A stretch of DNA of 60,632 bases from Candidatus Bathyarchaeota archaeon (GTDB taxonomy: Archaea; Thermoproteota; Bathyarchaeia; 40CM-2-53-6). Location of the stretch: positions 1 to 60,632 of the forward strand of contig VBBQ01000034.1 of assembly GCA_005888755.1 (NCBI GenBank). Direction: 5' to 3'. This document shows, one piece after another, positions 5,614 to 24,298 of the stretch. A model generated the notes under the pieces. It worked only from the letters and a program-made list of their open reading frames with translations, was not told the DNA's origin and searched no databases. Position 1 is the first letter of the stretch. Every line of letters begins with the position of its first letter. The position numbers were made by a program, and so were the translations under genes.

Positions 5614-7101
5614 TTAGCCTTTCGCGACTCCTATTGGAGTCATACGCACAACCTTCTGGCCGATTCCCAGTTGATGACTGACCTCGACCACTCTGTCGAC
5701 ATCCTTGTATGCGCCAGGAGCCTCTTCGGCCAATACCTCCATGCTAGCCGCTCGAATAACAATGCCCTGACTTTCCAGATTCTTCTTGAGATCATTTCCA
5801 AACCATTTGCGTTTGGCACCGGATCGACTCATGAACCGGCCTGCTCCGTGTGCAGTTGTCCCGAAACTAAGCTCCATTGCCCGGGGAGTTCCGATTAGGA
5901 CCCAGCTGCTGGTGCCCATGCTCCCTGGAATGAGAACGGGCTGTCCAACATCGCGGTATTCCGCTGGAATGTCGCGGTGCCCAGGTGGAAACGAGCGTGT
6001 TGCGCCCTTCCTGTGAACGGTAACCTTCTTTGTTTCCCCGTCGATCATGTGAGATTCGACTTTCGCCACATTGTGGGCGACGTCGTAGACTATCTTCATA
6101 TCGAGAGAGTCGGCTGGGCGCTGGAATACCTTCGAGAACGCTTCTCTCGACCAGTGGGTTATCATTTGCCGGTTCACGAAGGCGAAGTTGCATGCGGCTG
6201 ACATAGCAGGAATATAGTCCTCTGCCTCCGGACTCTTGCTCGGGCATGCAGCCAATTCTCGATCGGGAAGCTTGATGTTGTACTTGTTGATCGCTCTCTC
6301 CATTACTCTTAGGTAGTCGCTGCAGGTCTGGTGACCATACCCTCTACTTCCAGTATGAATCAAAACAAGAATCTGGCCTTCCTTGTGGATGCCGAGGCGT
6401 TCTGCGACGCGCTTATCGAAGATCTTATCGGCTCGCTCGATCTCGATGAAATGGTTTCCACTGCCTAGACTGCCGAGCTGCGGAGCCCCACGGGACTTTG
6501 CGCTGTTCGAAACCTTCGAAGGATCGGCAGCTTCCATACATCCCTCCTCCTCAATCGTCTTCGGGTCTTCGGGCCAAGCATAGCCATGGTCTACAGCCCA
6601 ATCAAGCCCGTCGGTAACGGCGCGATCTAGTTCGGTGACACTGAGTTTGACTTGGCCGCGGCTTCCCAGTCCTGAGGGGATGAAGTTGAAGATAGTGTCT
6701 ACAAGCTTCGGTAGAACTGGGCGTACCTCTTCCTCGGTAAGGTTTGTCCGGATCAGTCTGACTCCGCAGTTAATGTCGTATCCGACTCCGCCGGGGCTGA
6801 TCAGGCCTTCGTCATAGTCGGTTGCTGCTACGCCGCCTATCGGAAAACCGTACCCTTCATGCCCGTCGGGCATCGTGATTGCGTATTTGCAAATCCCATC
6901 TAGGTGCGCGACGTTCACGCACTGTTGAATTGTGCGGTCGGTTCTCATCTTGGACAGTAGGTCTTCGTCGGCGTAGATTCTAGCTGGAACTTTCATACCC
7001 GGGTCGAAGTCTTTCGAGACCTCCCACACGTTAGGCTCAATTTGGGTTAGAGGAATCTGTGTGCTGGAACGATTGATGAGTCCGGACCCTTGATGGCTCA
7101 T
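5614..7101 (-). CDS. rtcB: tRNA-splicing RNA ligase RtcB
   Basis: GTP- and Mn2+-dependent RNA ligase that joins 2',3'-cyclic phosphate to 5'-OH ends, the archaeal enzyme that seals tRNA exons after endonuclease cleavage. The 495-residue protein carries the metal-site motif GYDINCG (residues 108-113 hold the conserved Asp and Cys), SGNHF, HTGSRGYGHQ, VAHNVAK, and near the C-terminus AHGAGR, where the His is the residue guanylylated in characterised RtcB. No intein interrupts it, unlike several archaeal homologues. It lies 123 nt downstream of the archease gene on the same strand, close to an intron-bearing tRNA-Ser, so substrate and enzyme genes are neighbours. Confidence 0.96.
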   Translation of the reverse strand: MSHQGSGLINRSSTQIPLTQIEPNVWEVSKDFDPGMKVPARIYADEDLLSKMRTDRTIQQCVNVAHLDGICKYAITMPDGHEGYGFPIGGVAATDYDEGLISPGGVGYDINCGVRLIRTNLTEEEVRPVLPKLVDTIFNFIPSGLGSRGQVKLSVTELDRAVTDGLDWAVDHGYAWPEDPKTIEEEGCMEAADPSKVSNSAKSRGAPQLGSLGSGNHFIEIERADKIFDKRVAERLGIHKEGQILVLIHTGSRGYGHQTCSDYLRVMERAINKYNIKLPDRELAACPSKSPEAEDYIPAMSAACNFAFVNRQMITHWSREAFSKVFQRPADSLDMKIVYDVAHNVAKVESHMIDGETKKVTVHRKGATRSFPPGHRDIPAEYRDVGQPVLIPGSMGTSSWVLIGTPRAMELSFGTTAHGAGRFMSRSGAKRKWFGNDLKKNLESQGIVIRAASMEVLAEEAPGAYKDVDRVVEVSHQLGIGQKVVRMTPIGVAKG

Positions 7102-7224: not shown

Positions 7225-7662
7225 TTATAGGTCGAGCAGGAATCTGACAGTCACTTTTCCGGGATGTTTTTCTATTTCCATCAAGTGGTATGTTATTCCT
7301 TTGACCTCCACTTTCCCGTTGTGTCTTATCCGATTGTAGGGCTCGCCGCTTGCTTTGCCCTTGAGTCTGATTTCGCCTTGATTCGGGGAAATCGAGTTTA
7401 CGACAAATCCTCCGAGGGCAAGCTGCTTGATCTCAAACAGAAGCAGGAGCTCTTCAAGATAATTGTATAGGAGTTCTTTCTCGTCATGACCGATGGTTTG
7501 GATCTCCTCGTTGGCTTTTGGGTGAACGCTCTTTGTGTCCAGCATTGTTTCGAACAAGGCTTGGCCTGCTTGAGCGAAGGCTTCTTCCAGGGTATCTCCC
7601 CACGCCTCCACTAGCGCGTCTGTTACATGTTCGAGAAACTTGTATCCTCCAGATCCTTCCAA
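7225..7662 (-). CDS. Archease, RtcB activator
   Basis: Small metal-binding cofactor that promotes RtcB guanylylation and lets the ligase turn over. The 145-residue protein has the family pattern YKFLEHVTDALVEAWG (conserved His and Asp), GDTLEEAFAQAGQALFE, the ELLYNYLEELLLLFE helix, and a C-terminal VKGITYHLMEIEK...VRFLLDL. Start is TTG at 7662: an in-frame stop lies five codons upstream and no ATG precedes the conserved core. It is encoded just upstream of rtcB, the common archaeal arrangement. Confidence 0.94.
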   Translation of the reverse strand: MEGSGGYKFLEHVTDALVEAWGDTLEEAFAQAGQALFETMLDTKSVHPKANEEIQTIGHDEKELLYNYLEELLLLFEIKQLALGGFVVNSISPNQGEIRLKGKASGEPYNRIRHNGKVEVKGITYHLMEIEKHPGKVTVRFLLDL

Positions 7663-7763
7663 GGATTTTTCGACTCAATCGTTTCGTCGCTCCGTTAGAA
7701 CTACTTATTAGGTGACTTCTGTGCGCTCGTTCTTTGACCTGAAGGCGGGTTGACGCGCCGGGA

Positions 7764-7799
7764 TAATGCAAGTATCCAAGTGGTCTCTTGCATCCCGTT
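7764..7799 (+). other. tRNA-Ser intron 1, at the acceptor/D-arm junction
   Basis: About 35 nt between acceptor position 7 (A7763) and G9 (G7800); the exact cut is ambiguous because T flanks both sides. The exon end and intron fold into one hairpin: CGGGAT (7759-7764) pairs with ATCCCG (7792-7797), a 3-nt AAT bulge (7765-7767) interrupts, then GCAAG (7768-7772) pairs with CTTGC (7787-7791) over a 14-nt loop. A 3-nt bulge between two helices is what a relaxed bulge-helix-bulge site looks like. Confidence 0.75.
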
Positions 7800-7814
7800 G
7801 GCCGAGTGGATTAA

Positions 7815-7835
7815 CCTGCTGATGTAGGGTCTAAA
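7815..7835 (+). other. tRNA-Ser intron 2, in the D-loop
   Basis: About 21 nt; the boundaries can slide by two A residues. It folds as CCTGC (7815-7819), loop TGAT, GTAGG (7824-7828), with a flanking TTA/TAA pairing. Its removal turns an impossible loop of about 30 nt into GCCGAGTGGATTAAGGCG, the usual tRNA-Ser D-arm. Confidence 0.75.
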
Positions 7836-7840
7836 GGCGC

Positions 7841-7867
7841 AGATCTTCCAGCGATGTGAGAGCGTAG
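7841..7867 (+). other. tRNA-Ser intron 3, within the 5' strand of the anticodon stem
   Basis: A 25-nt insertion with a duplicated AG at both ends, so the cut may lie at 7841-7865, 7842-7866 or 7843-7867. All three give the same mature anticodon stem CAGGC, pairing perfectly with GCCTG (7877-7881). Without removal the stem would start with a U-G pair and lose the D-stem to anticodon-stem spacing. Confidence 0.75.
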
Positions 7868-7941
7868 GCCTTGAGAGCCTGTGGCCCGTTAGGGCCGCGT
7901 GGGTTCGAATCCCACTCCCGGCGCCAAAAAAAATAATACAA

Positions 7942-21055: not shown

Positions 21056-21307
21056 GTGAGAAATCATGTCACTGGAAAACCGCGTCCGCTATTGTCAATT
21101 CGATTCCTCCTACTTACTCCCCTCCTCCTCCCCCAACCCACCGGAAAACCTCTGACGAACCGGCAGAAGATTGCCTTAGCCGCGACTATAGTGTCCGTGA
21201 TCTTTCTGTTCATTGCGGTTTCTCTGTTGCGCCACTATCTAGGCTTACTAGGGGCAGTGATCCTAAGAGTCAAGACTGCGATAGGGTTCGAAAACGACAA
21301 TCCTTAA
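21056..21307 (+). CDS. Small single-pass membrane protein (hypothetical)
   Basis: An 83-residue frame whose convincing part is a membrane helix: LTNRQKIALAATIVSVIFLF then IAVSLLRHYLGLLGAVIL, ending in a short polar tail (KTAIGFENDNP). The N-terminal 30 residues are proline/leucine-rich and may not be translated. Reading frames in other registers overlap it, and I recognise no family. It fills the gap between the thermosome and tRNA-Glu, ending 26 nt before the tRNA. Confidence 0.4.
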   Translation: MRNHVTGKPRPLLSIRFLLLTPLLLPQPTGKPLTNRQKIALAATIVSVIFLFIAVSLLRHYLGLLGAVILRVKTAIGFENDNP

Positions 21308-21353
21308 CTGAAACTCATTTTCTGGAAGCCTCTGCTCCGGTAGTATAGCCCGG

Positions 21354-21368
21354 TCCACAATTTTGGCC
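21354..21368 (+). other. tRNA-Glu D-loop insertion, probable intron
   Basis: About 15 nt in excess of a normal D-loop, placed after the conserved GG (21352-21353). GGTC (21352-21355) can pair with GGCC (21365-21368) over a CACAATTTT loop. Exact boundaries are uncertain. Confidence 0.5.
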
Positions 21369-21409
21369 GAGAGTATGCCGGACTCTCGATCCGGCGACCC
21401 GGGTTCAAA

Positions 21410-21430
21410 AGGCTCTAAAGAGCCTGAATG
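21410..21430 (+). other. tRNA-Glu intron in the T-loop
   Basis: A 21-nt segment with a perfect hairpin AGGCTC-TAAA-GAGCCT (21410-21425) followed by GAATG. Removing it joins TTCAAA to T and gives a 7-nt T-loop on an intact CCGGG/CCCGG stem. Confidence 0.82.
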
Positions 21431-21457
21431 TCCCGGCCGGAGCACTAGATCACAAGC

Positions 21458-22313: not shown

Positions 22314-22715
22314 ATGGAGGAACTCTCGAATCTTCTCCAAAAGCACGTCAGTGTCTTGACTACTCAGGGGAAGACTTTCATCGGCACTCTCACAGGCGTT
22401 GATACGGAGACCCTTAGCGTCTGTCTCACGAACGCAAAGTCGGATGCTGGGGATATTCACAAGGTCTTCCTGAACGGTGACACCATTGTTCAGATATCTA
22501 GTTTTGAGAAGCCGTTTGATCTTCAGAGCCTTGGCGAGAGGCTTGAGCGGGTCTTCCCAAGAATGGTACGCGTGATGGATGAGGCAGGCGTGATAGTTGT
22601 CATGGATAGGATACGGGTTAACGAGAGGGGTATCATCGAAGGCACTGGTCCTGCTGCTGAGCGGGTTCAGAGAGTCTTTGACGAGTTCATGAGGGAAAAA
22701 GGCGTCAAGGCCTAA
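22314..22715 (+). CDS. Sm-like protein with C-terminal domain (SmAP3 type)
   Basis: RNA-binding ring protein of the Lsm family. Residues 1-65 form the Sm fold (LQKHVSVLTTQGKTFIGTLTGVD, Sm1; VFLNGDTIVQIS, Sm2). Residues 70-133 are an extra domain (LGERLERVFPRMVRVMDEAGVIVVMDRIRV ... GTGPAAERVQRVFDEFM), the layout described for SmAP3 proteins of crenarchaea. This class is about twice the size of a plain Lsm. It sits directly upstream of tgtA, spacing 8 nt. Confidence 0.85.
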   Translation: MEELSNLLQKHVSVLTTQGKTFIGTLTGVDTETLSVCLTNAKSDAGDIHKVFLNGDTIVQISSFEKPFDLQSLGERLERVFPRMVRVMDEAGVIVVMDRIRVNERGIIEGTGPAAERVQRVFDEFMREKGVKA

Positions 22716-22723
22716 ATCCCGTT

Positions 22724-24298
22724 TTGTCCTTTCAAGTACACGGCAAAGATCTTCTCGGCAGAATCGGAAAACTGACCACTAAGAGCGGCAGCTTTCAAAC
22801 ACCCCACATGTTTCCAGTCGTAGACCCAAACCGTCCTGTTCTGGATTCAAAATTCTATCGCGAGGCCGGCATTGGAGCGATAATGACCAATGCTTACCTC
22901 TTGAAGCGAGGTACACTGGGTCAACTGCCGAAAGATGTTCACGGGACCCTGGGTTTCAAAGAGACCGTTGCGACTGATTCTGGCGCGTACCAGATTCTCG
23001 AGTACGGACATGTTGGTGTGGAGCCCTCAGAGATCGTTGCTTACCAAGAGAAGATCGATACCGATATTGGAGTGATTCTTGACTTTCCAACGGGCTTTCA
23101 CAGCGATGCGAAACGAGCTGGATGGACTGTCGATGAAACGGTTCGCAGGGCCGACGAAGCTCTCAAGCGAATCAAACGGCAGGATATCCTCTGGGTAGGT
23201 CCGGTCCAGGGCGGAGTCCACATCAAAGAGGTCACCCGGTCCGCAATGGAAATGGGAAAGCGACGATTCTCAATCTATGCACTCGGCAGCCCTACGGAGT
23301 TGATGGAGGCGCAGCGCTTCGATGTTCTAGTGGACATGATAGTCGCGGCAAAGAAGTGTCTCCCTCACTCCCGCCCCTTGCACCTGTTCGGTGCGGGTCA
23401 TCCTGCTATGTTCCCATTCATCGTGGCTCTGGGTTGTGACATGTTCGATTCAGCTGCCTACGCGCTATACGCTCGGACGGGTAGATATCTCACGTCTGAC
23501 GGAACGCAGGAACTGGCAGAGATCAACGAATTCTCTTGCATGTGCAAGATCTGCGACAGCATCACCCCCGAGGAGATGAGACATCTCGACACACCTGAGC
23601 GAGAGCAACTCCTATCAAAACACAACCTTCTCGCGTGCTTTTCCGAACTGCGCAGGATTCGAGAGGCGATTAGAACGGGGCATCTGTGGGAGCTACTCGA
23701 GCATCGGGCTTACGCCAACCCGGCTTTCAAGAAGTTCTTGGCAAGGATTGTTCATCATTCTCCTTTTGTGGAACGGTTCGCGCCAACCGTCAAACCGCGC
23801 GGAATCTCTCATTTCGGCGAGGCTAGCGATCACAGGCCCGAGATGATCCGCTACAGTGGAAGGAGGTCACGGGTCCCGGCAGAACGAGGAAAAGCTGTTA
23901 TTCTCTTACCCGGCCGGTGGAGGAGACCCTACCATGACGACCCCCGCAACCTGCCAATAGTCAGCAAGCTCGCAAACAGGTCGAACTTGTCGATCTGCTT
24001 CTACACTATTCCCTTCGGACCAGTGCCGATGGAACTCGATGAGACATTTCCTTTGGCGCAGACCGAGAGTTTCGACGGTCACGATCCGATAGTTTACGAC
24101 GAGAGAGCGGGACAGGTGTCCGCTTGGATCAAGCGACTGTCACCGAAACAGGTTTTCTTGGTTTCCGAGGGAGAATATGGCGTGACACTTGGAAAGAAAC
24201 TCTCGGAGGCAGCTTCCAAGCTCAGAGTCATCATAATCGAGGCGAAGGGATCGAAACCAGACCGCACTGTAAACTCGATCATTCATCGGTTAGGCTAG
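22724..24298 (+). CDS. tgtA: Archaeosine tRNA-guanine transglycosylase without PUA domain
   Basis: Exchanges G15 in the D-loop of archaeal tRNAs for preQ0, the first step to archaeosine. The 524-residue protein has GAIMTNAYLLKRG, the catalytic TDSGAYQILEYG (nucleophile Asp region), GPVQGGVH, HLFGAGHPAMFPFIVALGCD and the zinc motif CMCKIC. A C-terminal domain (residues about 375-520: GKAVILLPGRWRRP ...) follows, but the usual PUA RNA-binding domain is absent. TTG start, no better ATG. Its target G15 lies in the arm that carries an intron in both tRNAs here. Confidence 0.92.
   Translation: MSFQVHGKDLLGRIGKLTTKSGSFQTPHMFPVVDPNRPVLDSKFYREAGIGAIMTNAYLLKRGTLGQLPKDVHGTLGFKETVATDSGAYQILEYGHVGVEPSEIVAYQEKIDTDIGVILDFPTGFHSDAKRAGWTVDETVRRADEALKRIKRQDILWVGPVQGGVHIKEVTRSAMEMGKRRFSIYALGSPTELMEAQRFDVLVDMIVAAKKCLPHSRPLHLFGAGHPAMFPFIVALGCDMFDSAAYALYARTGRYLTSDGTQELAEINEFSCMCKICDSITPEEMRHLDTPEREQLLSKHNLLACFSELRRIREAIRTGHLWELLEHRAYANPAFKKFLARIVHHSPFVERFAPTVKPRGISHFGEASDHRPEMIRYSGRRSRVPAERGKAVILLPGRWRRPYHDDPRNLPIVSKLANRSNLSICFYTIPFGPVPMELDETFPLAQTESFDGHDPIVYDERAGQVSAWIKRLSPKQVFLVSEGEYGVTLGKKLSEAASKLRVIIIEAKGSKPDRTVNSIIHRLG

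Follow-up and report, generated by a model that had tools for sequence, protein, structure and literature searches.

A tRNA-Glu(CTC) gene interrupted in its D-loop and T-loop by predicted introns in a soil Bathyarchaeia archaeon

Non-canonical tRNA introns with bulge-helix-bulge (BHB) junctions are known from the Thermoproteales, such as Pyrobaculum and Thermofilum, and from other archaea; they are small, have strict or relaxed BHB junctions, can occur several to a gene and are found in the D- and T-arms, with 20/21 and 59/60 among the listed sites (PMC4090602). The Thermoproteales average 0.84 introns per tRNA gene with a published maximum of three in one gene, and the published record is held by P. 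calidifontis, with 71 introns in 46 tRNA genes (PMC8450103; PMC3293823). In Caldiarchaeum subterraneum several introns per gene are likewise found, in the D-, V- and T-arms and including a tRNA-Glu, but only 13 of its 45 genes are interrupted (PMC3293823), compared with 34 of the 36 solved genes in the genome considered here. This genome shares intron size, junction type, multiplicity and D- and T-arm sites with the Thermoproteales and the other archaea, and differs from them in belonging to Bathyarchaeia from soil, in having more introns per gene and in possessing one gene with four. A literature search found no paper on tRNA introns in this soil lineage.

The window analysed is a stretch of 60,632 nucleotides from a Candidatus Bathyarchaeota archaeon, and contains a gene for tRNA-Glu(CTC) at positions 21334-21444 of the plus strand, with G1 at 21334 and the discriminator A73 at 21444. 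We consider it about 95% probable that this is a functional, probably single-copy gene from which two introns are spliced. Introns were sought with a script that lists possible BHB junctions and rates the cloverleaf left after splicing, and for this gene it returned exactly two, one in the T-loop and one in the D-loop. With these in round brackets the gene reads GCTCCGG TA GTAT AGCCCGGTCC (ACAATTTTGGCCGAG) A GTAT G CCGGA CTCTCGA TCCGG CGAC CCGGG TTCAAA (AGGCTCTAAAGAGCCTGAATG) T CCCGG CCGGAGC A. Exon 1 (21334-21356) supplies the 5′ strands of the acceptor and D-stems and the D-loop up to position 20b, exon 2 (21372-21409) runs from A21 through the 3′ strand of the D-stem, the anticodon arm with its intact loop CTCTCGA and anticodon CTC, the variable region CGAC and the 5′ strand of the T-stem to TTCAAA, and exon 3 (21431-21444) comprises T60, the 3′ strands of the T- and acceptor stems and A73, with CCA not encoded. 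Removing both inserts gives a perfect cloverleaf with its invariant nucleotides restored, as in intronless orthologues, and with the D-stem using G-T wobbles. A conserved element around CTTAACTGAAACTCATTTT lies upstream at 21302-21321 (+), and most members of the genus have it, as CTTAACTgaaac.tATTTT, at a similar distance from the gene while the adjoining bases vary; it is a possible promoter. Downstream, at 22314-24298 (+), the window encodes an Lsm protein and a protein of the tRNA-guanine transglycosylase family (PF01702).

The T-loop intron (21410-21430, 21 nt, TTCAAA|...|T) occupies site 59/60 and has the strict hBHBh′ form. A preliminary description made from the window alone had placed a 21-nt hairpin insert here and found the stems perfect without it; its coordinates are exact, with 7 of 7 acceptor, 5 of 5 anticodon and 5 of 5 T-stem pairs formed, and its reading of the insert as an intron is borne out by all the sequence-based and comparative tests applied. 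The outer helix h is the T-stem itself (CCGGG:CCCGG, 5 pairs), the central helix H is TTCA:TGAA (4/4), the 3-nt bulges are AA|A and TG|T, and the inner helix h′ is GGCTC:GAGCC (5 pairs). The BHB score of 9.4 is the highest of any candidate within the gene; shuffling the insert 20,000 times never produced a score as high, and the fold of the T-arm including the insert lies 5.2 SD above that of dinucleotide shuffles in stability. In the minimum-energy fold (-19.2 kcal/mol), more stable than the BHB form by 2.3 kcal/mol, the central 4-bp helix opens into a 6x6 internal loop, so that the motif is recognised by its geometry and by comparison, not by minimum energy. Several relatives lose one end pair of H, and the C56-G pair and the T55-A or T55-G pair are kept in all 11 T-intron versions checked. 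Introns of this kind are already known and the site is published, making this another instance of it. The suggestion that T-loop introns are rare therefore needs tempering, as two further tRNA genes of the same genome have introns at 59/60, each of 22 nt: tRNA-Glu(TTC) (L146, G000:C13:165500-166000), itself among the uneasy solutions of the survey below, and a gene only partly solved (L145, G000:C3:18100-18600, minus strand). Compared by eye, the three T-loop introns of the genome showed no likeness in sequence, leaving recent copying of one to another unsupported. A self-splicing group I or II intron was rejected, as its core needs hundreds of nucleotides and the inserts, of 15 and 21 nt, have no Rfam match.

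The D-loop had been described as about 15 nt too long, with a small hairpin of its own. The length is right (15 nt, 21357-21371), but the loop is not merely oversized: the hairpin is a short intronic helix, and the junctions of the insert form a relaxed BHB at site 20b/21, which identifies it, on sequence grounds, as a predicted second intron. Its H is CGGT:GCCG (3.5/4) with 3-nt bulges CC|A and AG|A. The alternative that the T-loop insert is the sole intron and the D-loop simply long draws on the weakness of this BHB in the host species, where the inner helix has 2 bp, the fold is weak (z -1.5), and the BHB score of 5.3 was reached by 38 of 20,000 shuffles of the insert, or by 80 of 4,000 with neighbouring registers allowed. 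Against it, in a relative (L019) the insert is 23 nt long and its inner helix, in the same frame, reaches 5 bp; the 3-nt bulges and H CGGT:GCCG are found again in the relatives; and the insert is exactly absent from other lineages, in 28 tRNA-Glu genes that are intronless or have the canonical intron. We regard the long-loop alternative as very unlikely, though it survives slightly better than those considered next.

Relatives were drawn from ‘Candidatus Bathyarchaeota’ genomes named BA_x, 13_1_40CM and similar, which we take to be of soil origin. One of them, BA_21 (L102), has a tRNA-Glu(CTC) gene identical in sequence to that of the host. Exons and introns were compared across 22 loci of the genus and family, representing 16 distinct sequences. 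Both introns occur in these relatives, and the exons vary at only 3 of 75 columns, with exon 1 near-invariant and exon 2 identical in all 22. Among the D-loop introns there are 9 versions, 13-23 nt long, and among the T-loop introns, always at the same site, 15 versions, 19-26 nt long; the flanks are mostly unconserved. In other Bathyarchaeia, as in a Caldarchaeum and a Geocrenenecus, the gene for this tRNA either lacks inserts or has an intron at the canonical 37/38 site. Among 49 tRNA-Glu genes from named genomes, 21 lack introns and have a regular D-loop and a 7-nt T-loop, and seven have a 37/38 intron only; run on the intronless set, the intron caller made zero calls. The T-loop insert is found at the same site in two other families of the order (L026, L028), and together with its absence outside the order this indicates a T-loop intron common to the order and an exact empty site beyond it. 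One relative's genome bin (G014) contains two different tRNA-Glu(CTC) genes (L010/L084 and L087) from two sub-clades, probably through mixed binning.

One could instead read the gene as a pseudogene, decayed or silent, in which the inserts are mutations: they break both of the loops that make the tertiary contacts of a tRNA, and standard finders miss the gene, neither ARAGORN nor Rfam (E up to 1) calling a tRNA at 21334-21444, most likely because the inserts break the models. However, near-invariant exons beside changing introns and flanks are not what decay predicts, and most other tRNA genes of the host genome are similarly interrupted. A second complete tRNA-Glu(CTC), which the preliminary description had named as a finding that would count against its reading, was looked for, and none was found in this 95% complete genome, where the copy at 21334-21444 is the sole full-length match and the only CTC copy detected; we consider decay very unlikely. 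Equally slight are the chances that the T-loop hairpin is retained in the mature tRNA as an enlarged loop, an idea favoured by the very stable fold; the BHB site keeps its exact position as the insert drifts in length and sequence, the T-loop of orthologues lacking the insert is a normal TTCAAAT, and the genome carries genes for splicing enzymes.

If both inserts are introns of a functional gene, as we prefer, the T-loop intron of the precursor would fold on the T-stem as a strict BHB, exonic TTCA pairing with intronic TGAA between two 3-nt bulges, and the D-loop intron would fold as a relaxed BHB through CGGT:GCCG. A two-subunit splicing endonuclease would make one cut per bulge, and the exons would be joined by RtcB together with archease, restoring the D-loop AGCCCGGTCCA and the T-loop TTCAAAT and thereby the 18-55 and 19-56 contacts. 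Structure and comparison point to splicing as such; transcription, cleavage, ligation and the exact positions of the D-loop cuts are presumed along with it.

Two proteins with the PF01974 domain of splicing endonuclease subunits are encoded in the host genome. The catalytic alpha subunit matches EndA of Aeropyrum pernix, an (alpha-beta)2 enzyme (PDB 3p1z, E=4e-42; also 3ajv), aligning with it through the active-site His and Lys regions and the Crenarchaea-specific loop, where K-P-K stands opposite K44-P45-R46, residues that have been linked to the cleavage of introns and are proposed to widen the range of substrates recognised (PMC12397907). In contrast to A. pernix, the second subunit is divergent, with moderate matches only to solved EndA proteins. 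The genome appears to encode a splicing endonuclease belonging to the type able to cut at non-canonical sites. Two endonuclease copies are present in most of the 121 class members sampled, and the intron load therefore cannot be put down to the number of subunits alone. Within the window lie the genome's only RtcB match, a tRNA-splicing ligase of 495 aa (5614-7101, minus strand; PF01139, E=1.7e-170) expected to join the tRNA exons, and a 145-aa archease, the RtcB co-factor (7225-7662, minus strand; PF01951, E=6.3e-40). Adjoining these genes of the ligase system is the other tRNA gene of the window, for tRNA-Ser(TGA) (7757-7923, +), which in the BHB and cloverleaf solution contains three introns, at 8/9 (7765-7799, 35 nt), 21/22 (7814-7834, 21 nt) and 29/30 (7843-7867, 25 nt), all on the plus strand. 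Neither tRNA of the window therefore uses the canonical 37/38 site, in agreement with the preliminary description.

The same approach, applied to stretches around tRNA candidates located by searches of the host genome (survey loci L032-L061 and L140-L188), solved 39 tRNA genes, of which 36 pass the score cut of 31. These 36 contain 73 introns, or 2.0 per gene, an approximate total since single automatic calls may be a base off or wrong and some tRNA genes are unsolved; L050, L058, L148 and L146 are examples of uneasy solutions. Two genes have no intron, eight have one, 14 have two, 11 have three and one has four, and 37/38 is used 22 times, though by no tRNA in the window. None of the window's tRNAs was called by the finders run (ARAGORN, Rfam), and for this lineage the number of tRNAs, the coverage of amino acids and the scores of genome quality may consequently be underestimates.

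The four-intron gene is that for tRNA-Phe(GAA) (L189, G000:C4:90839-91006; loci of relatives, L190-L201), with BHB introns at 8/9, 18/19, 37/38 and 46/47. Spliced in silico, its 11 copies, the host's and ten from relatives, reduce to only two mature sequences. The 8/9 intron is common to three relatives, one with a 6-bp inner helix, and is missing in seven, which read GCCGAGGTAGCTC directly and so provide a natural empty site. We found no report of four introns in one tRNA gene in the open-access literature. On balance, we lean towards regarding this genus as having the highest known tRNA-intron load, at about two per gene, and the first four-intron tRNA gene, with the relatives lacking the 8/9 intron directly showing gain or loss. 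Discussion of tRNA intron gain and loss usually draws on the Thermoproteales; the many close relatives with or without an intron at the same site make both directly testable in this soil group. Elsewhere in the host genome, the gene for tRNA-Gly(TCC) (L049, G000:C13:88461-88579) has two introns, one of 26 nt at 53/54 and the other at 27/28.
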